A stretch of 37,003 nucleotides of DNA, taken from Syntrophobacteraceae bacterium (GTDB lineage Bacteria; Desulfobacterota; Syntrophobacteria; Syntrophobacterales; Syntrophobacteraceae). Every line of letters starts with the position of its first letter. The stretch's first letter is position 1. Below the pieces are notes generated by a model. The model worked only from the letters and a program-made list of their open reading frames with translations. It was not told where the DNA came from and searched no databases. The DNA lies in the NCBI GenBank assembly GCA_013314815.1, contig JABUEY010000025.1:1-37003 (forward strand), in the 5' to 3' direction. Positions 1,006-12,767 of this stretch are shown piece by piece. Both the position numbers and the translations under genes were made by a program.

Positions 1006-1416
1006 TGCCGAGTTCTCTGGGGTATCCTCGTTTACTCACACAGGAGTTTAAGAGGTGATGCGTCGGAAGGGCAGAAAACGGGCATGAGTTCGCACTGTTA
1101 CGATGCTCGTGGGTGTAAGACAGGACTTTCAGCGTCAGGCTCGCCATTAAGCTTATTTCCTTTTCAATTCCACCTCTGGCAGACCTCGTGCTCTCGCCCG
1201 TGTCCCGGTCTGGAATTCGCCTTGGACGAGCAGGCTCGTCGTAACGTTCGCCCCAATCGTGTTCGTCATCCTACGGACTGCAAGTTCGCCTCCGATTGCT
1301 CCCCACCCCGCCTCGCGACGACGCAGTTACCTTCAGCTATCGGGATTGGGCACCTCCCGAGAGAGGACTTGCACCTCTCTGATCGCACCTGCTCCCAGGC
1401 GCACAGTCTCAGCCTT
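1006..1416. other. Gene-free stretch of unknown origin ahead of the transposase relic
   Basis: About 410 bases with no convincing protein on either strand. It contains a short perfect hairpin at 1361-1379 (six paired bases, gagagg/cctctc, around a seven-base loop). Read on the minus strand the stretch has an RNA-like feel, with many short conserved-looking GC segments such as the reverse of 1262-1300, but I could not match it to a known RNA. It runs directly into transposase homology at about 1417, so it may be the flank or an inserted part of a decayed mobile element. Confidence 0.3.
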
Positions 1417-1714
1417 CGCATGGATCACGGGACGCAATACCTCTCGGACCATTTCCAGACTCAGCTCCGCTACTGGGGAATTACTCCGAGCTTTGCCTTC
1501 TTGGAGGAGCGTCAAACCAACGGGGTGGTGGAGAGGTTTTTCCGCACGATCAAGGAGCAGGCGCGATGCGCCGGCAGGCGCCTCGGCCCGTAGTGGGTTT
1601 TTCCGCACGCTCAAGGAGCAGGCGATCTACGGACGGATCTTTTTCCATGAAGATCGCTCAATTTGGGATATAGTATGCAGCATACCGTCTTACTGTTTCC
1701 TCACTGAGGATTGA
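1417..1714 (+). pseudogene. Transposase relic (integrase-core, IS481/IS3-like)
   Basis: Only the C-terminal end of an rve-type integrase core remains. From 1417 one frame reads RMDHGTQYLSDHFQ, then GITPSFAFLEERQTNGVVERF and FRTIKEQ, matching the DNG/S..YTS...Q...GI and N.VVERF..TLKEQ blocks of these transposases. The frame ends at a TAG at 1591-1593. The homology resumes in the next frame with FFRTLKEQAIYGRIFFHED. The break is caused by a duplication: a 29-base segment at 1535-1563 recurs at 1596-1624 with one mismatch, offset 61 bases, which shifts the frame by one. No N-terminal half and no terminal inverted repeats are visible, so the element is dead. Confidence 0.7.
1535..1624 (+). repeat. 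29-base direct repeat inside the transposase relic
   Basis: Copies at 1535-1563 and 1596-1624 differ at one position (A to C) and encode FFRTIKEQA and FFRTLKEQA in different frames. The 32 bases between them (1564-1595) contain cgccggcaggcg, a small inverted repeat. This looks like a local duplication or an imperfect insertion that froze the gene. Confidence 0.75.
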
Positions 1715-1871
1715 AACAATTCTGGCAAACAAGGGCGACCTGGAATGCTCATGTCTTGCCTATTCGTAGTATCGGGTTTTTGATATTCGAGTCTCCATGC
1801 GGACAGCTTGGCAGGCGGGGTCTCAAATCCCCCATCCGGTTCTTTTGCGACTCACAATGCGGAGAAACACC

Positions 1872-2558
1872 ATGAGACAGAGTTTCAACGGGCGCAGATG
1901 CATTGGGATGGTCGAAGTATTCTTGTTGATGCTGCTGATGGCATGTCTTCCGGCAAATGCAGATGAGTGGGGGGGATACAGTTCAAGGTGGACGGACAAT
2001 TTTGACGGTTCGTCCCTGGACCCTCGCTGGACCTGGGCGCGTGAAGACCCAACCCACTGGAGTCTCATCACCCGCCCCGGGCATCTGCGCATAGTCACTC
2101 AAACCGGCGGTATTTTCGAGTCGACGGAAAAACAGAAGAACCTGCTTCTGACGCCGGCGCCCGAAGGCGACTTCAGAATCGTTACGAAATGTACCATCGA
2201 CCCAACGGAAAACTTTCAATATGCCGGACTGATGGTCTACCAGGGTCGGGACAGGTACGTCCAGGTGAACCGGGCCTTCACCGACGGAAATTCATTCAAC
2301 TTTGACGTGGAGACCGGTGGAACACCGACCAACCACCGCGTTCCGGCATCGGCGACCACGTTTTACCTGCGCATTACGAAACAGGGAGATACCTATACCG
2401 GCGATTACAGCCTGGACGGTGAATCCTGGACAACAATCGGGCTGGGGACCGTTTCCCTGGCCGGCTCGAAAGTGGGCATCTGTGCCGCCAACAACCTTCC
2501 AGGCAAACCGCACATTCCCGCAGATTTTGATTTTTTCACTCTTTACAGCAACCGGTGA
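1872..2558 (+). CDS. Secreted concanavalin-like (DUF1349 / GH43 C-terminal-like) protein
   Basis: A 228-residue protein with a signal peptide: a basic start (RQSFNGRRC), a hydrophobic core (VFLLMLLMACLP) and likely cleavage after ANA at about residue 31. The mature part is a single beta-sandwich-like domain with WTDNFDGSSLDPRWTW near its start, QYAGLMVYQGRDRYVQV in the middle, YSLDGESWTTIG, and DFDFFTLY at the end. This pattern is known from the C-terminal domain of family 43 glycosidases and from DUF1349 proteins, which bind or act on carbohydrate. No catalytic residues can be assigned, so a lectin-like or glucan-related role is inference. The ATG at 1872 is preferred because GGAG lies 7 bases upstream; an ATG at 1797 is in frame but lacks a ribosome site and would bury the signal peptide. 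Confidence 0.75.
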   Translation: MRQSFNGRRCIGMVEVFLLMLLMACLPANADEWGGYSSRWTDNFDGSSLDPRWTWAREDPTHWSLITRPGHLRIVTQTGGIFESTEKQKNLLLTPAPEGDFRIVTKCTIDPTENFQYAGLMVYQGRDRYVQVNRAFTDGNSFNFDVETGGTPTNHRVPASATTFYLRITKQGDTYTGDYSLDGESWTTIGLGTVSLAGSKVGICAANNLPGKPHIPADFDFFTLYSNR

Positions 2559-2757: not shown

Positions 2758-5058
2758 CTATTCCGCCAGAGGCACACGCAGACCGCCGGAACGAGCCTGC
2801 ATGCCCGGCTCAAAGAGGTCTCCCTTGTTATGAACGCAGAAACCCGAGTTCGGATCATAGCCTGACGCGCCGATTTCCGGGAGCTCGAACAGGACATCAT
2901 CCGCTCGCCCGTCACGATTGGCGTCGGTCGGTTTGGCCCTGATCATCACAAGGAGGGACGGGTGATCGAACGGCGCCTGGTCGCACTGGACACGCCGGTC
3001 GGTCAAGGTCAGCATGAAGGCGGTCAAATGGTCAATCTCGTCGTCGGTCAGGTCCAGAGGCTGAACGAAGCGGTCGACATTGGTCCCGAAGTCAGGCGCC
3101 GGAACAGGAAATCCTTCCTTCCCCAGCAGCCCCGTACCCGACGTGTCACCGGTGTAGCTGGGATCGATCAGGCTCTTGTCGCGCCGGCTGCCTCCACGAC
3201 TGTAGAACTCGACCACCTGGCGCAGGGTGCCGTAGGCGCCGTTATGGAAATAGGGTGGAGTGAGGCCCACGTTCCGAAGGGTCGGAGTTTTGAAGCTCCC
3301 CGCCACCATCTCACGCTCCTCATTCCAGTCGAAGCTGGGGTCCACCGAATCCGTGGTATCGTTCACGTCGGTGTCACAGCCCGGATAGACCGGAGTGCCG
3401 CCGAGTTCGATCAAGGTGGGGGTGTTGCACGGGTCGGTGACGCCCGAGGTGTCATTGACCGGCAGACCCAGCTGTTCGGCAAGGAAGATGCGCGCAATCG
3501 AGAGGGGATTGCCATAAATATCGGTCCCACCATTTCCCGGGTCGAAACTGGAAGGGGAAACCCCGATATTGAAGAAGCCGCGATCATGGACAGCACCCTC
3601 GATGACGGCCGGTGTTCCCGGTCCCCGGTCATTCATGCGGGACCGTTCCACCATCACGAGACTCGTCCCCGCCTGGAACTGCGATTCCGCCGACAGGGGT
3701 AAAGGATGGCAGGCGCTGCACGCCGGTCCGGGACGACCGCCGGTATTGGGCCCGAACAGGGTGAAGAGGCGGAATCCGTCCAATTCACCGGGAGTCAGCG
3801 CATCGGAAACATTCTGGCATACGGGTACTCCCGCGACCAGTGCGGGATTGCAATCGTCAAAGCGGCTTTTGTCCGACACCAGCTTCGATTCATAGATCAT
3901 GATGGCGATACCCCAGAACATGGAGAAGTTGTGTTCCATCTGGGTGTACCCATGCTTTCCACCGGCTTTCAATTGGCCACCTTCGGTGATGATGAACCGG
4001 CCGTTGCTCTTCCAGTATTTCTCGTGGAACGCCTTCTGGATCAGGTCGGAATAGGTGAATCCGACCCTGAGGCCTCGACCGGTGAGGAAACGAAGACGAA
4101 GATCGCCGAATGGTCCGGGTTTTCCGAACACACTGTCCTGGGGGTGAATCTTCTGCAAGGCAAGCGGCCGGCGCAGGAGCATCTTCCTGCCGACATCCGC
4201 GAACGTGCGCCCCTCACAAGACATCTCTTTTTCGCTCAAGGGAGGTCCGACCGCCTGGGAAGCCAGGCTCGCGTCATCGAGGTCCAGGTAACCCAGCTGG
4301 GGTTTCCCCGCGCCGTCCAATACGATCAGCCGTTTTTGGGGATCCCCCGCAATATCCCTCGGCCCGAAGACTCCAACCCCGTTGAATTTTCGATGGGCTC
4401 TGCCGTCCCAAAACTGAAAAAGACTGAAAACGGCATTGACCGTCGTCGGTGTGTTTCGCGGTTCCACCTGTCGGGCAGCGTATTTTCCCGCATGGAAGAT
4501 ATCGTTGTTCGGCTTTCCACACCAGTCTTTCACCCCGAATATACGCCTTGTTTTGAAGAACGTGGCATCGAACGATCCGGGAGACGAAACGGCGTCATCG
4601 GTTGCGATCACGATGGGTGAGTTCCTGTCTTTGTAGTCGGAGAGTTCGTAGATAGGAAAATCATCCGCTTTGAGACGGTAGGTGGCATCGATGGGGAACC
4701 CCCCGGACTTGGTGGTGCCGATGGGGGCATTCGGCAACGGTTCTCCGTCAAAGTTATCGATGGCGCCAAAGGAAGTGTCCTCCTCCGGCTCCTTCAAAAA
4801 GCCGGGGGTCAGGACATTGTTGAGTCGAGGGTCCGCTCCGGCGCTGAAATGGCAGCTGTAGCAGGACTGTCCGTCGCTGCCGACCTGTTGATCGAAGAAG
4901 AAGGCCTTGCCAAGAACCAATGCCCAGTTTGCATCCTTGACAATCCCGCTGAGATCGGCAAGCTTGGGAGTCAGCACAGCCTGGCTGTTCCCTGCGGACA
5001 GCGGAACGACAAGCAGAAAGAAACCTGCACAAAAAGCAGACACGAGTTTTCTCATCAT
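2758..5058 (-). CDS. Di-heme cytochrome c peroxidase / MauG-family protein, long form
   Basis: A 766-residue exported protein. The signal peptide covers about residues 1-26 (KLVSAFCAGFFLLVVPLSAG). Two haem c attachment motifs are visible: CYSCH at residues 66-70 and CSACH at 447-451. The C-terminal block FKTPTLRNVGLTPPYFHNGAYGTL followed by LTDDEIDHLTAFMLTL is the classic end of the CcpA/MauG family. Family members reduce hydrogen peroxide or oxidise proteins in the periplasm. About 380 residues separate the two haem sites, roughly twice the usual distance, so there are large insertions. Start: ATG at 5058 or the adjacent ATG at 5055, both behind AAAGGAGGGAG; upstream in-frame ATGs (to 5226) have no support. 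The gene is monocistronic as far as seen. Substrate cannot be inferred. Confidence 0.88.
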   Translation of the reverse strand: MMRKLVSAFCAGFFLLVVPLSAGNSQAVLTPKLADLSGIVKDANWALVLGKAFFFDQQVGSDGQSCYSCHFSAGADPRLNNVLTPGFLKEPEEDTSFGAIDNFDGEPLPNAPIGTTKSGGFPIDATYRLKADDFPIYELSDYKDRNSPIVIATDDAVSSPGSFDATFFKTRRIFGVKDWCGKPNNDIFHAGKYAARQVEPRNTPTTVNAVFSLFQFWDGRAHRKFNGVGVFGPRDIAGDPQKRLIVLDGAGKPQLGYLDLDDASLASQAVGPPLSEKEMSCEGRTFADVGRKMLLRRPLALQKIHPQDSVFGKPGPFGDLRLRFLTGRGLRVGFTYSDLIQKAFHEKYWKSNGRFIITEGGQLKAGGKHGYTQMEHNFSMFWGIAIMIYESKLVSDKSRFDDCNPALVAGVPVCQNVSDALTPGELDGFRLFTLFGPNTGGRPGPACSACHPLPLSAESQFQAGTSLVMVERSRMNDRGPGTPAVIEGAVHDRGFFNIGVSPSSFDPGNGGTDIYGNPLSIARIFLAEQLGLPVNDTSGVTDPCNTPTLIELGGTPVYPGCDTDVNDTTDSVDPSFDWNEEREMVAGSFKTPTLRNVGLTPPYFHNGAYGTLRQVVEFYSRGGSRRDKSLIDPSYTGDTSGTGLLGKEGFPVPAPDFGTNVDRFVQPLDLTDDEIDHLTAFMLTLTDRRVQCDQAPFDHPSLLVMIRAKPTDANRDGRADDVLFELPEIGASGYDPNSGFCVHNKGDLFEPGMQARSGGLRVPLAE

Positions 5059-5519
5059 CTCCCTCCTTTCTGATGAGCTGTTAACAAGGAACCTGTACGC
5101 TGGACAAAATCCGCATTCCGTGGATCGAGAACCGTTTTCCCCCTTTCCCTTCCACCGGTCTGCTGCTTCAACGGACATACCGTGACCCAGGTAGTGCCCG
5201 GCAATCCGCAAGGCTTCAAAGGGCAAGAAAAATCCTGCACTGTACTGCCTGGAAGTCTATCGAGGGAAACCGCCCGCGTTCAAAGTTTGAAGACGCCAAT
5301 AGAGGTGATGCGCTGGGGAAAAGACTGAATCGTGAGAGTGGAAGGAAAGCTGCTGCCTTCCCTCCCGATACCGGGCTGAATCTCCTGAATGCCTCCTTCT
5401 TACATGACTTGCCAACCTTGATGAAATGGGGTGTTCTTACTATTTACTGGAGCAGAATGCCGTATTTCTTGCCTACAGGTGGATCGAAACGCCATACATG
5501 CGGCAAGACGTGTTTCGAG
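5059..5519. other. Intergenic stretch upstream of the peroxidase gene
   Basis: No protein is supported on either strand. The first 20 bases hold the Shine-Dalgarno site of the peroxidase gene. I see no confident promoter, hairpin or repeat in the rest; the right half merges with the decayed end of the enoyl-CoA hydratase relic. Confidence 0.5.
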
Positions 5520-5795
5520 TTCAATACCTCCATTATCCCCGACACTCTTCCCGAGTAAAGGATCTTCTCCGCGTTTCGCGCTTCGACGCAGTGCTTCAAC
5601 ACCTCGACGATTCACGCAAAGAACGTAGACCCGAAAGTGACTTCGTTCAATGATATCTTTGCCTTTCCGGTCGCCATGATTCGATGGTCGACCGCCGCTG
5701 CAATCATGCATCCACCGGCAAAGGCATGCCCGTTCAAAGCTGCGATGATCGCTTTTTGGAAACGTGAAGATATACCGCTGCCGTTCACGCGAAGG
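5520..5795 (-). pseudogene. Enoyl-CoA hydratase/isomerase (crotonase) relic with in-frame TGA
   Basis: On the minus strand from about 5795, one frame reads QKAIIAALNGHAFAGG, then CMIAAAVDHRIMATGKAKIS and LNEVTFGSTFFA, the central crotonase block with its acyl-CoA oxyanion-hole glycines (GHAFAGG). A TGA at about 5612-5614 follows FFA, and in the same frame the homology continues as IVEVLKHCVEARNAEKILYSG. After that the similarity fades and a TAA closes the frame. Intact relatives have Gly where the TGA stands, so a GGA-to-TGA change is the simplest reading. The N-terminal third is missing; upstream sequence is repetitive. An intact gene would be about 250-260 residues, so this is a non-functional remnant. 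Confidence 0.7.
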
Positions 5796-5797
5796 AG

Positions 5798-5835
5798 TTG
5801 TAAGGACGTAGTGACCTTGTAAGGCCGTAATGACG
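5798..5835 (+). repeat. Two tandem 19-base units at the edge of the crotonase relic
   Basis: Units at 5798-5816 and 5817-5835 share 16 of 19 bases (ttgtaagg.cgta.tgac.). The following 40 bases repeat the word acgtcgttg twice. The block sits where the N-terminal part of the relic should be, so it may mark the breakpoint that destroyed the gene. Confidence 0.6.
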
Positions 5836-6106
5836 TTGGTGCGGGAACGTCGTTGTTGTGCGCATACGTCGTTGCGGGACTGACGTCCTGTCGGGTGTAA
5901 TTGTCCTTTGTGCGACAACCGTCCAGGCAAGCGTTTATGAGAAAATGCCGGAAGAACCTCTTTCCGCGGCCTTCGAAAACTTTCTGTTGCCTGTTCCCCC
6001 CATGAACTCGGACTCTTCCTGCTTCAGGCTCCACCGAGTACAGGGCTGTATGGCCCAATTTCCTGAAATTCCATTGATATTCTCTGGAAATAAGTATTTT
6101 TGCATA

Positions 6107-6138
6107 GACAATTCCAATTGGACAAATTGGAATGTGTC
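6107..6138. promoter_or_regulatory. Inverted repeat, likely operator, within the promoter of the desulfidase operon
   Basis: ATTCCAATT (6111-6119) and AATTGGAAT (6125-6133) are perfect inverted copies around five bases. The symmetry extends to GACA (6107-6110) and TGTC (6135-6138) if one G is skipped. It overlaps a good sigma-70 type promoter, as expected for a repressor site. The regulator is unknown; none is encoded next to it. Confidence 0.6.
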
Positions 6139-6145
6139 ATATAAT
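6118..6145 (+). promoter_or_regulatory. Predicted sigma-70 promoter for the TudS-like / ABC operon
   Basis: A -35 box TTGGAC at 6118-6123, a 16-base spacer and a perfect -10 box TATAAT at 6140-6145. Transcription would begin near 6152, leaving a leader of about 210 bases before the ATG at 6362. I recognise no riboswitch in the leader. Confidence 0.55.
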
Positions 6146-6361
6146 GGCTTTCATGGATGAGATAAATGCTCTCGTAAGCCATTTGCATGGATACCCTGCC
6201 TGCACACGGGCCTGACAGAGTCTATGTCCGTTTGTCGGAGCCATAAGCCCGGTAAAGAGGAAAATGAGATCACCTGGCATGGTGGGGAAGACGATCGAAG
6301 GTTTGGAGGGCGGATCTGTGTTTTCTTTCCTGGCGGCGACTGGAAGGTTGCAGGAGAATGG

Positions 6362-6892
6362 ATGATGCTGCGCAGCAGAAGGGTACTCGTCGTATGTCAC
6401 TGCCTTCTCAATTCCAATGCAAAGGTGCAACCGCTTGCAAAGGTGGGGGGAGTCCACGCCGATGTTTTGAAAAATTACATCGATGACGGAGTCGGACTGC
6501 TCCAGCTTCCGTGCCCGGAGCTCGCCTACCTGGGTATCAACCGTTGGGGTATGACTCGAGAACAATACGATCATCCCAATTTTCGATCTCACTGCGAGAG
6601 CATCTCTGCGCCATCGGTCCATCAGATCGAGGCGTTCGTACAGGCCGGGTACGAGATTGTCGGAATCATGGGAATGGATGGCAGCCCCAATTGTGGAGTG
6701 AACCGGACATGCCTGGGATACAGGGGAGGTGAGGTCGCGGGCCTGGGCGATGGGGGTGGGGGAAGGAATGCGCTGAGGATGGTACCCGGCACCGGTGTGT
6801 TCATGGAGGTGCTTCGGGCCGTTTTGGAGAATAAAGGCTTGCGGATTTCTTTCCTGGCAGTGAATGAGGGAAATCCCTGTGACAATGCGTGA
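6362..6892 (+). CDS. TudS-related putative [4Fe-4S] desulfidase (DUF523-like)
   Basis: A 176-residue cytosolic protein. Three motifs match the TudS/DUF523 group: CHCLLN with C12 and C14, LPCPEL with C51, and GSPNCGVN with C111. In TudS, three cysteines hold a [4Fe-4S] cluster whose free iron takes sulfur from a thio-substrate such as thiouracil. C14, C51 and C111 are the likely ligands here (inference by motif position). The true substrate is unknown. ATG 6362 is chosen because AGGAG lies five bases upstream (6352-6356); the frame is open back to an ATG at 6224, but that 46-codon extension lacks family similarity. It is followed after 20 bases by a binding-protein gene and then a permease, so it may act on something imported by them. 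Confidence 0.75.
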   Translation: MMLRSRRVLVVCHCLLNSNAKVQPLAKVGGVHADVLKNYIDDGVGLLQLPCPELAYLGINRWGMTREQYDHPNFRSHCESISAPSVHQIEAFVQAGYEIVGIMGMDGSPNCGVNRTCLGYRGGEVAGLGDGGGGRNALRMVPGTGVFMEVLRAVLENKGLRISFLAVNEGNPCDNA

Positions 6893-6912
6893 TCGCGATC
6901 GGGAGATGGAAG

Positions 6913-7689
6913 ATGGAACTGAGAAGGATTGCACTTGTGTTCGGGATGTGTTTGCTGTTGCTGGTGCCGCCCCTTTCGGCAGCCGCGGATGATTCGTTGA
7001 AAAAAGTGATGGAAAGAGGTGAACTGGTTGTCGGATTCTGTGCCCAGTACCCGCCGTTCGAGTCCAAGAACGAAAAGACGGCCGAATTCGAAGGGTTCGA
7101 TGTCGACCTGGGGCGGGCCATAGCCGGGCAGATGGGGGTCAGGGCAAGGTTTGTCGACGCCGAATGGCAGGGGCTTCTCGGAGGGCTGAAGAAGGGCGAC
7201 TTCGATGCCCTGATCACCTGCATGTCCAAATCGGAAGCAAGAAACGAGAATGTAAACTTCAGCAACGTCTACTACACCCTCCCGGATGTGATTGTCGTCC
7301 GAAAGGATGAATCCGCCGTCAAAGACAAGGAGGATCTCAAGGGGAGAATCGTCGGCGTCCAGTTGGGATCGGGAAGTGAACAACTGGCGGACCAGCTGAA
7401 GGACCACTTCAAGGAGATCAAACGCTACAATTATAACCCCGAAGCCTTTACGGACCTCAAATTCAAACGTATCGACGCCGTGATAGTCGGCTACGCGTAC
7501 GCTGTGAACCAGATCAAGACGGATCCTTCGTACAAGGTTGTGGGGAAACCCCTTGCCGAAGCGGAAATCGTCGTCGTCGCACCCAAGGGTGCCGACGCGC
7601 TGACGGAGAGGATCAACGTCGCTCTGACCGCAATCAGGGCGGACGGGACATATGATAAGATCCATGACCGCTGGTTGAAGGTCGAGTGA
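6913..7689 (+). CDS. ABC transporter substrate-binding protein, polar amino acid type (SBP_bac_3)
   Basis: A 258-residue periplasmic binding protein. Signal peptide at about 1-25 (LALVFGMCLLLLVPPLSAAA-like core). The mature part shows the family 3 pattern: LVVGFCAQYPPFE, then FEGFDVDLGRAIA, WQGLLGGLKKGDFDAL, the hinge SNVYYTLPDVIVV, GVQLGSGSE and a final YDKIHDRWL. Such proteins capture polar amino acids or similar small molecules and deliver them to a HisM/GlnP-type permease, which follows. ATG 6913 is preferred over a GTG at 6889 because it places the basic N-terminus directly before the hydrophobic core. It lies 20 bases after the desulfidase stop. Confidence 0.88.
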   Translation: MELRRIALVFGMCLLLLVPPLSAAADDSLKKVMERGELVVGFCAQYPPFESKNEKTAEFEGFDVDLGRAIAGQMGVRARFVDAEWQGLLGGLKKGDFDALITCMSKSEARNENVNFSNVYYTLPDVIVVRKDESAVKDKEDLKGRIVGVQLGSGSEQLADQLKDHFKEIKRYNYNPEAFTDLKFKRIDAVIVGYAYAVNQIKTDPSYKVVGKPLAEAEIVVVAPKGADALTERINVALTAIRADGTYDKIHDRWLKVE

Positions 7690-7705
7690 AAGGCTGCCGC
7701 CGAGC

Positions 7706-8368
7706 ATGGGCGAATTCCGGTTCGACATCCTGGCCAACGCCCTCCCCCTGCTGATCGAGGGGCTGTGGGTTACCCTGTATGTCTCGCTGCTTTCGTTCCT
7801 GCTCGCACTCTCCATCGGATTCACCGTCGGCATTCTCAGGTCCAGATCGCCCCTGCTCAGGGCGATTCTTGCACCCTATGTCGAGGTATTCAGGGGAACG
7901 CCGCTCCTGATCCAGCTCTTCTTCATCTACTACGGCCTGCCCTCCCTGGGCATCACCCTCGACAGTCTCACCGCGGGCATCCTCGGGCTCGGGATGAACG
8001 GCGGCGCCTACATCTCGGAAATCATCAGAGGCGCTTTGCTTTCCGTTGAAAAAGGGCAGCAGGATGCGGCGATGTCTCTCGGGCTTTCCTGGTTCCAGAG
8101 CATGATTCACGTGATTCTTCCCCAGGCTGTCTCCGTGGCCATCCCCTCCCTGGTCAATTCCTTTTCGGCCCTCCTGAAGGAATCCTCCCTTGTCTCCGTT
8201 CTTGCCATAACCGAACTGACCCGGGTCAGCCAGCTCATTTACACTCGCACGTTTCGAGCCCTCGAGGTCTACCTGGCCGTCGGGGCTCTTTACTTCATCA
8301 TGACCTATTTTGCCTCCCGGGTTTCAAAAAGGCTGGAATGGAAATTCCAGGTGAGCGGCCGCCTGTAG
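7706..8368 (+). CDS. ABC transporter permease, HisM/GlnP family
   Basis: A 220-residue inner-membrane protein with several hydrophobic segments. The first lies at about residues 12-40 (LLIEGLWVTLYVSLLSFLLALSIG). The family signature for contact with the ATPase reads GAYISEIIRGALLSVEKGQQDAAMSLGLS at about residues 99-127. The sequence FRGTPLLIQLFFIYYGLP is typical of polar amino acid permeases. It begins 16 bases after the binding-protein stop and is clearly the same operon. No ATP-binding gene follows: the next gene is on the other strand. The transporter therefore needs an ATPase encoded elsewhere, or the locus has lost it. Confidence 0.88.
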   Translation: MGEFRFDILANALPLLIEGLWVTLYVSLLSFLLALSIGFTVGILRSRSPLLRAILAPYVEVFRGTPLLIQLFFIYYGLPSLGITLDSLTAGILGLGMNGGAYISEIIRGALLSVEKGQQDAAMSLGLSWFQSMIHVILPQAVSVAIPSLVNSFSALLKESSLVSVLAITELTRVSQLIYTRTFRALEVYLAVGALYFIMTYFASRVSKRLEWKFQVSGRL

Positions 8369-8492
8369 AGACACAGAAAGGCCGCAGAGTGCAAATCCCT
8401 CGATCCTCTTCCCGGAAACAACCGTGCAAATGTGCCTGCTCCGAAACCTTTCGGATGCGGGGTCTGTCGATGAACAGATCTTCAGGATTTCC

Positions 8493-8521
8493 AACAAAAC
8501 CCCGCCTGCTCACCAGCGGGC
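8493..8521 (-). terminator. Rho-independent terminator after the metallo-beta-lactamase-fold gene
   Basis: Read on minus, a GC-rich stem (CCCGCTG...CAGGCGGG, one bulge) over about 8501-8520 is followed by GTTTTGTT. It begins about 10 bases after the stop of the minus-strand gene at 8530, the right place for its terminator. Confidence 0.5.
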
Positions 8522-8529
8522 ATACGACA

Positions 8530-9252
8530 TCAGGCCAGCAACTCCCTCATGACCTGCGCCAGGTCACAGATGGCGGACTCACCATCACCCAAATAGGTTG
8601 AACCGTGCATGGGTGCAATCACGTTCGGCCTGAGGGCAGCAAGTCGGTTCAGAAATTGTTCTGTTTTGGTTGTATATGGCAGATAATCGGCAAAAGGCCC
8701 TTGCTGATAGTCAATGAGCGTCTTCCTGAACCGGCCGATAATGTCACGGGTCGTCACCGGTTCCACGTCCCCATCCTGATGGAAAAGATCGGAACATAGA
8801 AGAATGCCTCTTGTCTCTTCAAAAAGATGGCCGGCGTCCCAGGCGTGAGGCACATGCGGTGTCTGAAGGAACTTGAAACGGTACTTTCCCGTCAGCAGTA
8901 CTTCTCCGTCTTCCAAGGCCCTGGCTGGACGTTCGGCCACCACATCGTCCACGCTTACCAACTTCGAGACGAGGCTGCATATCGCCGTCGCGTGCGGAGC
9001 TGTCTTCTGCCACTCCCTGAGTGCGCCGCATTCATCTGCCTCAAAATGACTGAATCCGATCCACCGTATTGAAGTGGGATCCATCAGCCTGGCAACAACT
9101 TCATTGACTGTCGGAAAGAGCCCCTTCATCCCGGTATGGTAAAGAAGTGGTTCTTCATCCCTCACAAGAAATTGATTGAACTGAATGTTAAACTCCGGAA
9201 TGAAGGTGGAAATCTTGAAAAAATCAGGTGAAATTTCAGTTACCTGGCTCAT
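8530..9252 (-). CDS. Diiron metallo-beta-lactamase-fold protein (flavodiiron-like ODP domain)
   Basis: A 240-residue cytosolic protein made only of the diiron domain of flavodiiron proteins. The ligand set is intact: H69, E71 and D73 in [10 protein letters not shown]133 or H136 in [10 protein letters not shown]155 in CSDLFH and H216 in MHGS. There is no C-terminal flavodoxin domain, so it cannot accept electrons through a built-in FMN. Stand-alone proteins of this kind are called oxygen-binding diiron proteins and have been linked to oxygen sensing or reduction in anaerobes. Start ATG 9252 has GGAGGAG seven bases upstream. It is a single gene with its own terminator. Confidence 0.85.
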
Positions 9253-9578
9253 TATTGTTCTCCTCCAGTCACCATCTCAAGAAACGCTCCAGGATCCACG
9301 ATCCGGATCCCCCGGAAACTCTCAACCCCTAACAATTCATGAAAGAAGCTGGATACCATCCCGTGGCCTCCCCAAGTATCCAAGATTCTAAAATAACAAT
9401 CATCCGGCAAAGATTCATGAACGGGGCACACAGTTCCGGCATTTTGTCAGAACACATACCTCCGGTGCTTTTCATGCAACCGGTGCTTTCACGCAAAGGA
9501 TCGATAGCATCACAACATGAGATGGGATGGTCTGTGCGGGACGGCGAACCGGGGGTGACAGTACGCGATGCTTCCCTG
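9253..9578. other. Intergenic stretch between two minus-strand transcription units
   Basis: No gene is supported. It holds the Shine-Dalgarno site of the diiron protein and a short direct repeat, ccggtgctttt at 9462-9474 and ccggtgcttt at 9480-9491. I see no convincing promoter or terminator for the phosphonate operon that ends at 9579. Confidence 0.5.
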
Positions 9579-10694
9579 TCAGGAAGGTACGATTGCGGCT
9601 CGGAGCACTTTGCGTCGAGCGACGTCTTGAAAGGCTGCCTGGATTCGTTCCAGGGGATATCTGGCGTCCACCAGGTCCCGGAATGGGAAGCGGCCGCGGT
9701 TGGCCACCACGAAGTCCAGGGCCTGCAGCAGATGCCGGGGATGGTAGTTGTGCACCCCCGAGAGGGTGAGGCAGCGCGTGAGGATCCGGTTTGCTTCGAT
9801 CATGACGGTGGCGCCCGGATTGACCACTCCGGCAAGAACGTACCGCCCTCCGGCGCGCAGCAGATTGAGTCCGATGGGAATGACTTCCGGGACACCGGCG
9901 ACCTCGATCACGGCATCGGCCCCATCCGGTCTGCAAAGGTTCCTGATGCGATCCTCCAACCGATGGGCTTCGGAGCGGGGATCCAGCGCCACATCCACTC
10001 CGAAGCGGCTGGCCAGGTCGCGACGAGAGGCTACCGGATCGACTCCGACCACCAGTCGCGCTCCGAGTGCCTTGGCCATTGAAGCCCCGTAGAGTCCCAG
10101 CAAACCGAGACCCTGGATGACCACTGTGCTGCCCAGGCCGATGCATGCCGCTTCCGTTGCCGCTGCCATGGTGGCCACGCCACAGTTGAGCGGCGTTGCT
10201 TCTTCATCGGACAGGCCTTCGGGCAGAGACAGGATTCCCGTGCCGGGCTGAAGGTAACAATAGTCGGCAAATCCGCCGAGCAGGTATGGTTCCTGGTGAG
10301 CTGATTCGTGTCCGTATTTTTTCACCCCGGTACATTTTTGCGGCATATCGAGCACATGTTGATAATAGGGGTCCCCGCTGCAGAAGTATTCAGTCCAGGT
10401 GACGCGGTCTCCAACCTCCAGCATGGTCCCGCGCAGGTCGCGGCAGACGCTGCCGCTCATGGCCACAATATGGCCGATAGCCTCGTGCCCCAGGATTCCA
10501 GGGCAGAGCGAGGGGCGTAGTCCCTGGTAGGAATGAAGATCGGAGCGGCAGATGGTGGCCATCCTCACACGCACCAGGACTTCCCCAGGGCGAAGGGCAC
10601 GCAGAGGGAATTCCTGAATCAGGAGAGGCAAGTTGGGAGCGGTAAAGACCGCAGCGCGGCTGGTGTTGGGCATTTCCCGGATCATTCTCTTCAT
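9579..10694 (-). CDS. Zinc-binding alcohol dehydrogenase, phosphonate-associated (HpnZ/TIGR03366-like)
   Basis: A 371-residue medium-chain dehydrogenase. Catalytic zinc ligands are visible as C49 (TICRSD), H70-E71 (GHEAIGH) and C171 (NCGVAT). The NAD(P) loop reads GLGLLG near 195-200, and VVGVDP follows. The usual four-cysteine structural zinc lobe is reduced to C105 and C121 (FCSGDPYYQH...PQKC), which I recall as a feature of the phosphonate-associated subgroup. Its ATG overlaps the phnA stop as ATGA (10691-10694), so the two are translationally coupled. Likely substrate is an aldehyde or alcohol from phosphonate breakdown, such as acetaldehyde released by PhnX; this is inference from position. 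Confidence 0.82.
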   Translation of the reverse strand: MKRMIREMPNTSRAAVFTAPNLPLLIQEFPLRALRPGEVLVRVRMATICRSDLHSYQGLRPSLCPGILGHEAIGHIVAMSGSVCRDLRGTMLEVGDRVTWTEYFCSGDPYYQHVLDMPQKCTGVKKYGHESAHQEPYLLGGFADYCYLQPGTGILSLPEGLSDEEATPLNCGVATMAAATEAACIGLGSTVVIQGLGLLGLYGASMAKALGARLVVGVDPVASRRDLASRFGVDVALDPRSEAHRLEDRIRNLCRPDGADAVIEVAGVPEVIPIGLNLLRAGGRYVLAGVVNPGATVMIEANRILTRCLTLSGVHNYHPRHLLQALDFVVANRGRFPFRDLVDARYPLERIQAAFQDVARRKVLRAAIVPS

Positions 10695-11953
10695 CGGCTC
10701 GATACCGTACCGTTGACGGCATAATCAAAGATTTCGCAGTTTTTGATTCCGCGTGTTGCGGCCCTCACAGCGTATTCTTCCGTAAGTTTTCGATTGAGGA
10801 CGAATGGGACTTTGCTTTCGGAGACGGCACCGTGGGTCCTGAGGCGACGACCTTCCAGGCCCGACAGGTCATGGTCCGCTTCCGCGGCACCCATGCAGGT
10901 CGACCGATCGCCCAGGACAATAACGTCGCCTTCACGGTCTGAGGGCAGGTCGAATTCGCGGACCGCAGTGTTCCTGTCCAGGACTCGCTCGATGCCCGGC
11001 AGTTCCCGGGCGATGCGCATGACGCCGGCGGGATCGGTGCCATCGAAGCACCAGACCCTTGCGAATCCCCCAAGAGAACCATGATGAGCAATGTAATGGT
11101 CGGTGATGGGGCAGATGACCCTCGTTCGTCCTCTCCCGAGTCGAACATCGAGAATGTCCTGGAGCCAGACCACGTTGGGGGAACCATCGGGCCCGCATTT
11201 GTCATTCATCCCATGGTCCGCCGTCAGGGCCACTACTGCGCCCAGAGCGTCGAACCGGCCGAAGAAGGTGTCCAGGGCTTGATAGAAAGCGGTCGCCTCC
11301 GGTTCACCCGGAGCGTACTTGTGCTGAATCCAGTCGGAAAGAGAGAGGTACATGAGCTCCGGCCGCACGATTTCCAGGAGTCGAATTCCGGCGGCAAGGA
11401 CGAAAAGAGATAGTTCGGGGGAATAGATATGGGGCACTGGCATGCCTGCCAGGTCGAGTACACCCTCGATGCCGTTTTCCGCGACGGTGCACCGATCGGC
11501 CTGTTCAGAAGAAAAGCAGACACTGCCGGAGGAGAGATCCATGCCCTTGCTCAACTGGCGCCGCAGTTTGTCTTTGGCGGTAATGGCAACAACATTTGCC
11601 GCGGCCCTGGAAAATTCGGCAAGAATGGTGCCGGACCGGAGTAGTTCCGGGACCGTCATACACACGGCTTCTCGGGTCTTTGCATCCAGGTGGAAATTTC
11701 CGGAGATGCCATGTACCGAGGGAGGGCTGCCGGTGACGATGGACATATTGTTGGGGCAGGTGAAGCTCGGCATGGCGCCGTCGGCGATGGCGGCGAACCC
11801 GTGAGCCATGAATCGTGTCACATGAGGAAGAATGCCCGTTTCAACGCCATGGAGGAAGTATGCGGGGTCGCCTCCATCGACACAAACCACGACTACGGGC
11901 TGCTCGGGCCGGCGGTAGGTAATTCCGTTGAGGCTGATGCCTGATCGAGTCAC
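10691..11953 (-). CDS. phnA: Phosphonoacetate hydrolase
   Basis: A 420-residue enzyme of the alkaline phosphatase superfamily. It cleaves the C-P bond of phosphonoacetate to acetate and phosphate. The metal-binding and nucleophile residues are in place: D26 (VDGGDP), T65 (PSFTCPNN, the nucleophile), D207 and H211 (LSDWIQHKY), D246-H247 (TADHGM) and H374 (RTHGAVSE). Length matches known PhnA proteins. The start is GTG at 11953 with AGAGGA seven bases upstream. It sits 22 bases after phnE and overlaps the dehydrogenase by four bases. This is the hydrolase, not the unrelated Escherichia coli protein also once called PhnA. Confidence 0.9.
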   Translation of the reverse strand: MTRSGISLNGITYRRPEQPVVVVCVDGGDPAYFLHGVETGILPHVTRFMAHGFAAIADGAMPSFTCPNNMSIVTGSPPSVHGISGNFHLDAKTREAVCMTVPELLRSGTILAEFSRAAANVVAITAKDKLRRQLSKGMDLSSGSVCFSSEQADRCTVAENGIEGVLDLAGMPVPHIYSPELSLFVLAAGIRLLEIVRPELMYLSLSDWIQHKYAPGEPEATAFYQALDTFFGRFDALGAVVALTADHGMNDKCGPDGSPNVVWLQDILDVRLGRGRTRVICPITDHYIAHHGSLGGFARVWCFDGTDPAGVMRIARELPGIERVLDRNTAVREFDLPSDREGDVIVLGDRSTCMGAAEADHDLSGLEGRRLRTHGAVSESKVPFVLNRKLTEEYAVRAATRGIKNCEIFDYAVNGTVSSR

Positions 11954-11975
11954 CAGGTTGTCCTCTTCAGTGACT

Positions 11976-12767
11976 TCATATGGTCAATCTGCGAATGCCA
12001 GCCGAAGCCAGGTCTATGAGAGAGACAAAAGCGATAATGATGAGCAGCACTGCCGATGTTTCCGCATAGTGGAATCCCCGGATAACCTCATAGAGCACCA
12101 CTCCGATGCCCCCGGCACCCACCATTCCAACCACGGAAGCTGAGCGTACGTTCGCTTCGAAGCGGTAGAGCGAGTAGGAAATCCAGAGCGGCAGTACCTG
12201 GGGGATGACTCCGTAGACGATCTCTTCGAATGCACTGGCGCCGGTTGATCGAACCCCTTCCACCGGGCGAGGGTCGATGGCCTCCACCGCCTCGGCAAAG
12301 AGCTTTGCCAGAGTGCCGGTGGTGTGGACCCAGAGCGCCAGTACACCGGCGAACGGTCCGAGTCCCACCGCCACAATAAAGAGCATCGCAAACACCATCT
12401 CATTGATGGCTCGGCAGGCATCCATGAGCCGGCGCATTGGCTGATAGATCCACGGAGAAACAATGTTTTCCGATGACATGAGGCCGCAGGGCACGGAGCT
12501 GACGATCGCCAGGGCGGTTCCCCACACGGCAATGTGAAAGGTGACGAGCATCTCTTCCAGGTAGAGTCGCCAGTCGCGGAAGCTGGGTGGGAAGAAGTCC
12601 CTGCTGTACTGCGCCATGTTGCCAAAATCCCGAAAAAGGTCCAGCGGCCGCATGTCCGCTCCGTTCCATGCCCACGAAAGCAGGGCGAGCCCGCCGGCCC
12701 AGGCCAACGCATGGGCCAGCTTGCGCCGGGACCGTGCCATATCGGTAAAGGTTACAGCCTGGCTCAT
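11976..12767 (-). CDS. phnE: Phosphonate ABC transporter permease
   Basis: A 263-residue inner-membrane permease of the PhnE family. About five to six hydrophobic segments are visible, including [16 protein letters not shown] at about 19-34, [18 protein letters not shown] at about 76-93 and [17 protein letters not shown] near the end. FRACRAINE-like sequence ([15 protein letters not shown]) and [17 protein letters not shown] are characteristic of PhnE. Its ATG follows the phnD stop with no gap (TAG then ATG at 12767), so the two are coupled. Confidence 0.9.

Follow-up and report, generated by a model that had tools for sequence, protein, structure and literature searches.

A conserved three-gene unit of a TudS-like protein, a binding protein and an ABC permease in a Syntrophobacteraceae bacterium

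TudS, a thiouracil desulfidase of the DUF523 family (PF04463; PDB 6z92, 6z93, 6z96, 6zw9), is reported to recycle thionucleotides (PMC10611767). The window analyzed here, a 37,003-nucleotide stretch of a Syntrophobacteraceae genome, encodes a TudS-like protein directly ahead of the binding protein and permease of an ABC importer. Do these genes act together to import and process one small molecule, and, if so, what could that molecule be? An earlier note on this DNA had read the locus as a possible unit for the uptake and desulfuration of a thio-compound.

Gene order and its conservation

The three genes (Table 1) are separated by 20 bases (tudS-like gene to binding protein) and 16 bases (binding protein to permease), and family matches bear out the order of tudS-like gene, binding protein and permease that the earlier note had drawn from the open reading frames. 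The binding protein matches the SBP family PF00497 with 128.5 bits, and the permease scores 77.4 bits with PF00528 and 107.4 bits with TIGR01726. The locus thus encodes both an SBP_bac_3 protein and a HEQRo-type permease, the pair by which a polar amino acid ABC importer is recognized. No ATPase adjoining the unit was found in the window. Likewise, at the nine loci described below, no ATPase of the unit's own was found in the stretches examined, where the ATPases present belong to other systems (SaoA at L022, peptide importers at L023, and others). GlnQ-like ATPases are encoded near other amino acid permeases of the window's genome, on contigs C63, C87 and C208. An Rfam search of the window gave no match, and a promoter scan found nothing. 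Elsewhere in the window, a group of phosphonate genes includes those for the phosphonoacetate hydrolase PhnA (TIGR02335, 532.8 bits), the permease PhnE and a phosphonate-associated alcohol dehydrogenase (TIGR03366, slightly below the cut-off).

Table 1. Positions of the unit, of its key codons and of related features
Feature	Stretch	Positions	Strand	Remarks
tudS-like gene	window	6362-6892	+	176 aa; ORF open upstream to 6224; NCBIfam NF045597
C14, cluster-ligand-type cysteine	window	6401-6403		
C51, cluster-ligand-type cysteine	window	6512-6514		
C111, cluster-ligand-type cysteine	window	6692-6694		
Periplasmic binding protein, SBP_bac_3 family (family 3)	window	6913-7689	+	258 aa; signal peptide-like start; alternative GTG start possible upstream at 6889
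C43, pocket codon	window	7039-7041		
C103, pocket codon	window	7219-7221		
R110, pocket codon	window	7240-7242		
G193, pocket codon	window	7489-7491		
ABC permease, polar amino acid type	window	7706-8368	+	220 aa; TIGR01726 HEQRo_perm_3TM
Next gene	window	8530-9252	- (opposite)	ODP-type metallo-beta-lactamase-fold protein
Phosphonate genes	window	9579-12767	-	
822-residue ORF	window	2758-5226	-	di-haem cytochrome c peroxidase (CCP_MauG) match
RudS-type fusion	L114 (G000:C215)	1392-2546		
SAO genes of the window's genome	L167 (G000:C174)	3970-10418		
Extended TudS-like protein	L026	2866-4056		
Decayed unit	L029 (G034)	7204-7978		
TudS-like gene and activase gene	L018 (Desulfamplus MAG)	3457-6526		

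The earlier note had proposed looking for the same gene order elsewhere, and this order is indeed conserved, being intact in nine genomes. Besides the window's genome (G000), these are Desulfosarcina cetonica JCM 12296 (L015), a cultured strain, two Desulfobacteraceae MAGs (L016, L017) and the genomes G006 (L021), G004 (L022), G038 (L023), G177 (L053) and G521 (L109/L113). In these eight other genomes, identity to the window's proteins is 51-76% for the binding protein, 60-78% for the permease and 47-67% for the TudS-like protein. Given this recurrence in eight other genomes and the conservation of the proteins, the arrangement is more than chance. In a tenth genome (G034), the unit survives as decayed remnants that keep this order: the TudS-like fragment contains two in-frame stops, the binding protein is reduced to 27 residues and the permease to 135. 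These remnants adjoin a CGGC-domain gene. Of the 277 genomes in the class to which G177 belongs, two have the TudS-like gene (E <= 1e-30); these two are also the only ones with the binding protein (E <= 1e-60), and the two genes are neighbors in both. Run against a 395-genome sample of the phylum, a profile of the binding protein scores 505, 489 and 469 bits in the three unit genomes that the sample contains, followed by 192 bits for the next match. These genome searches were centered on the window's phylum, and a scan of genome contigs gave four loci; the binding protein had no match in plasmids (E <= 1e-60), and none was found in viral contigs.

The surroundings of the unit are not conserved in this way. 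In an all-against-all comparison of the flanking ORFs of at least 100 aa, taken from within 6 kb of the loci or from as much as the stretch offered, the matches between different loci were ABC ATPases with 23-33% identity and one pair of peptide-binding proteins with 28%. Only one specific flanking gene, saoL, recurs from one of the nine loci to another, at 42% identity between G004 and G177.

Within the NF045597 family, pairing with an importer is a feature of the close homologues of the window's TudS-like protein (47% identity or more) and not of the distant members sampled. Nine of the 12 whole close genes are followed by this binding protein and permease, two by an unrelated importer and one by none; two different importers therefore adjoin one type of enzyme. 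Dropped before counting were a truncated close gene without an adjoining importer (L067), a 28-residue fragment at a contig end (L030), the decayed unit and the distant TudS-like rows. At the two loci with the other importer (L019 and L020, in genomes G012 and G003 of one genus), an ATPase, a permease and a binding protein of the TauB/TauC/SsuA-NMT1 kind come after the TudS-like gene and form a complete importer unrelated to the window's. The single whole gene without an adjoining importer (L018) is followed by a gene for an acyl-CoA dehydratase activase. The unit's binding protein never stands alongside the distant family members sampled (L024-L028, L054-L066, L068, L069); at L028, another amino acid importer lies about 4 to 8 kb off. 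In a tree, the TudS-like rows of the unit do not form one supported clade.

The TudS-like protein

The TudS-like protein of the window is by score a member of NF045597 (CD3072 family TudS-related putative desulfidase; 182.9 bits, cut-off 130), a family whose name gives no substrate. With Pfam PF04463 (TudS/DUF523) it reaches 23.3 bits (E 6.9e-05), below the gathering score of 34.7. Its AlphaFold2 model (pLDDT 85.6) retrieves TudS (6z92) at rank 1 in Foldseek (E 6.4e-4). In a VIA-align comparison, the best four entries are all TudS (Z 9.8-10.0 over 136-138 residues, with Z 10 for 6z92 and 6z96 and an rmsd of 3.7 over 137 residues at Z 10.0), and the next entry, which is not a TudS, has Z 6.2. 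The protein as modeled thus has the TudS fold. This relationship was found by fold comparison alone, as neither a sequence search nor a profile of 23 homologues retrieved TudS from among the PDB chains.

In the TudS reference enzyme, Cys10, Cys43 and Cys104 are described as the cluster cysteines and Glu45, Ser101 and Ser103 as catalytic residues (PMC10611767). By motif, Cys10, Cys43, Cys104, Glu45 and Ser101 correspond to C14, C51, C111, E53 and S108 of the window's protein, so that both share the three cysteine ligands, the Glu and the first Ser; the motifs (ACLL, CPEV and SPS) were mapped onto the genome's own RudS via a weak profile match (Prob 3.6%, E 0.012). All five residues are invariant in 23 of 23 rows of alignment A5, from which the weak matches L028 and L069 were left out along with L026, L027, L061-L063 and L066. 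In L028 and L069, the third ligand cysteine is missing (SPTDG). The position of Ser103 is taken by Asn110 in the window's protein, and the 13 rows of alignment A3 have Asn (nine rows), Ser (three) or Thr (one) there. An extra cysteine, Cys78, is invariant in 13 of 13 rows of A3 and not in the 23 rows of A5. The window's protein therefore differs from TudS in its sequence (17% identity, below the Pfam cut-off), in this Asn and in being encoded with an importer.

Pfam found no match to DUF1722 in this protein, which is thus not a fusion of the RudS type. The one protein of the window's genome that exceeds the PF04463 cut-off is a separate TudS-DUF1722 (RudS-type) fusion on another contig (C215). 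In place of the expected SPSCG, which contains the third cluster cysteine, this fusion reads SPSSG. The protein at L026 is possibly a fusion as well: its TudS-like domain is preceded by as many as about 220 N-terminal residues for which Pfam gave no match. In addition, a selenoprotein in the DUF523 family is predicted in Desulfosarcina sp. BuS5 (PMC12013277).

The binding-protein pocket and the SAO neighborhood

The AlphaFold2 model of the binding protein (pLDDT 92.1) has the family-3 fold, as do GlnBP and AncQR (PDB 1wdn, 1ggg, 4zv1, 4zv2), with which it also shares the carboxylate-binding Arg. In GlnBP, the alpha group of the ligand is described as held by Gly68, Thr70 and Arg75 together with Asp157 and Gly119 of the small domain; Asp10 and Ala67 hold the ligand's side chain (PMC7400645). 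G193 of the window's protein aligns with the Asp of AncQR. Based on the AncQR alignment and motif spacing, we take C103 to be the counterpart of GlnBP Gly68, R110 that of Arg75, G193 that of Asp157 and C43 that of Asp10. Unlike GlnBP and AncQR, all nine unit binding proteins have Gly193 at the position of the amine-binding Asp and Cys103 at a ligand-contact position, and eight of the nine have Cys43 (Ala in G521); Arg110, Y46, W85 and Q150 are present in all nine. Paralogues were compared as the best binding protein, rather than all matches, of each of 27 other genomes with a locus, and these have Asp at position 193 in 27/27 and Cys at 43 or 103 in 0/27.

Given this pattern of R110, G193 and C103, the pocket may retain its grip on a carboxylate, would probably not hold an ordinary alpha-amino group, and would turn a cysteine toward the ligand site. 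Specificity for an ordinary amino acid is, besides the lack of a conserved gene order, what the earlier note had named as counting against its reading. The pocket, as judged from its sequence, argues against a protein built for such a ligand, because the amine-binding Asp is Gly in 9/9 and Cys replaces contact residues. We also considered that the pocket might always contain a two-cysteine metal site and rejected this idea: the intact unit of G521 has Ala for Cys43, so that a two-cysteine site is not essential.

SAO, which is predicted to deal with organometals (review PMC13188914), is represented by the NCBIfam families NF040727-NF040736 and comprises the SaoX, SaoB, SaoP and SaoA importer, the MerB-like 'organometallic lyase' SaoL and the efflux protein SaoE. 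Like the unit, it combines ABC import in anaerobes with cysteine- or selenocysteine-rich parts, and it adjoins the unit in two genomes. In G004, the unit lies downstream of a saoX-saoB-saoP-saoA-saoL run in which each gene exceeds its NCBIfam cut-off; saoL and the TudS-like gene are 359 bases apart. In G177, which belongs to another class than G004, saoL (175.8 bits, cut-off 140) lies at the contig end, 315 bases from the end of the permease gene, and is convergent with it, an orientation that differs from that in G004. Among 97 relatives, three have a SaoL above its cut-off, as do two of the 395 phylum genomes; together these are four genomes (G002, G004, G021, G177). In the union of 433 genomes, the intact unit occurs in five and SaoL in four, with an overlap of two (hypergeometric P 6.4e-4, before counting adjacency and for an association noticed after the fact).

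The SAO system also differs from the unit, since none of the three window proteins exceeds the cut-off of a Sao family (the permease reaches only 23.5 bits with NF040733, cut-off 295) and most unit genomes gave no match to saoL and saoB in the searches. saoL had no match in G000, G006, G038 and G521; the genomes of L015, L016 and L017 gave none either, but controls there were silent and its absence is therefore less certain. saoB was found in four of the 15 genomes tried, including the unit genomes G000 and G004, and the other seven of the nine unit genomes gave no match. In the window's genome, saoE, saoX, saoB, saoP and saoA are found on contig C174 together with a gene for a double-cubane-cluster reductase (NF040772). 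Here and in G004, saoP stops at an in-frame TGA beyond which homologous sequence continues (AEFIATSAGFGYSMVEAQTRMETP), as expected of a selenoprotein; saoP of the window's genome probably carries selenocysteine at this codon. The unit may be tied to the little-known, selenium-using SAO system. The importer at L019/L020 was considered as an SAO importer and rejected, its binding protein being about 20% identical to SaoX; its permease and ATPase give moderate scores with SaoP and SaoA. At L018, a double-cubane-cluster reductase gene lies upstream on the other strand, and the neighbors at this locus represent a second link of the TudS-like subfamily to genes that also stand in SAO loci.

What the unit may import and process

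As a three-gene import-and-process unit for one small molecule, the locus is well supported. In the fuller reading that we tentatively favor, the binding protein would catch a periplasmic small molecule that offers Arg110 a carboxylate or a comparable anion and lacks an ordinary alpha-amino group; a soft atom of this molecule (the sulfur of a thiol or thione, selenium, or a soft metal bound to a thiolate) would meet Cys103 and usually Cys43. The permease, working in the import direction as we infer, would form a homodimer served by an ATPase encoded elsewhere. Inside the cell, the TudS-like protein would carry a [4Fe-4S] cluster on Cys14, Cys51 and Cys111 with one iron open and, helped by Glu53 and Ser108, would take sulfur (or a like atom) off the imported molecule. 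A thio-compound is a plausible substrate, as a thio- or mercapto-carboxylic acid fits both pocket and enzyme. Of the import-and-desulfuration unit that had been proposed, the pairing of an importer with a TudS-fold enzyme holds up, because the gene order is conserved and the pocket does not appear made for an ordinary amino acid; its identity as a desulfidase is weakened by the score below the Pfam TudS cut-off and by the Asn in place of the second catalytic serine. Ala43 in G521, the importer-free genes at L018 and L067, the lack of an ATPase in the unit and the absence of a single TudS-like clade likewise count against the favored reading.

The earlier note had also held that a dedicated import-and-desulfurate system would be new, which is too strong, because E. 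coli CyuP and CyuA are described as a dedicated importer and a desulfidase that are encoded in one operon and used anaerobically, with cysteine as their substrate (PMC9040844). There, too, the importer gene adjoins the desulfidase gene, whereas cysteine is a substrate for which the window's pocket does not seem built. CyuA belongs to a different protein family from the TudS-like protein, and CyuP is a different kind of importer. Among open-licence papers, we found no report of an import-linked TudS, and the CD3072 name gave no match.

A serious rival to a thio-compound is a soft-metal or organometal-linked substrate. The SAO links at sibling loci suggest another substrate class. Here, the unit would handle soft metals or organometals beside SAO: the pocket cysteines of the binding protein, which suit a soft metal, would capture the metal-thiolate or organometal complex that a small carboxylic acid forms, and the TudS-like cluster protein would strip the thiolate sulfur or receive the complex. 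This is possible, if doubtful. Such a complex fits the pocket cysteines and the SAO neighbors (saoL beside the unit in two of the nine genomes, an overlap between SaoL and unit genomes beyond chance expectation, and five sao genes on another contig of the window's genome), but seven of nine unit genomes lack a saoL match and seven of nine a saoB match, the association was spotted post hoc, Cys43 is Ala in G521, and the TauBC-type neighbor at L019/L020 is not SaoX-like. Moreover, the substrate of SAO is itself a prediction from NCBIfam names and a review (PMC13188914). A narrower version, in which the unit serves the SAO selenoproteins as an auxiliary arm, strikes us as rather unlikely. In this version, the imported compound would be a mercapto-carboxylic acid in complex with a soft metal or organometal, and the [4Fe-4S] protein of TudS fold would either remove its thiolate sulfur or take its metal-bound chalcogen.

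Two simpler accounts need neither a thio-compound nor a metal. The locus could be an amino acid importer operon that by chance begins with a TudS-like repair gene, the enzyme recycling internal thionucleotides and the importer supplying ordinary amino acids. In its favor, both importer proteins fall within the polar amino acid family, and recycling of internal 4-thio-UMP has been reported for TudS enzymes, yet we consider this account unlikely: an ordinary amino acid fits neither pocket nor enzyme, the amine-binding Asp having gone in all nine binding proteins; the gene order is kept where the flanks are not; two unrelated importers adjoin close TudS-like genes; and the genome has a separate DUF523-DUF1722 (RudS-type) protein. 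It is less probable still that the TudS-like protein, rather than being an enzyme that acts on the imported compound, controls the importer's function or matures it as an iron-sulfur sensor or chaperone. Cys78 could then serve as a fourth ligand or redox partner, and one catalytic serine is lost; however, Cys78 is not invariant in the larger alignment, the active-site residues Glu53 and Ser108 are kept in all of its rows, and no DNA-binding or regulatory domain was matched.

A TudS-fold enzyme with an importer of its own, as in the reading that we favor, would mean that the TudS family also works on compounds from outside the cell. If the SAO-arm reading were true, the family would have a role in mercury-type or related organometal chemistry, which is not proposed in the papers that we found. 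The altered pocket offers a direct handle on this question, because it belongs to one soluble protein that can be screened for its ligand. Should the SAO link hold, that ligand may also reveal the import substrate of the SAO selenoproteins, which so far is only predicted.
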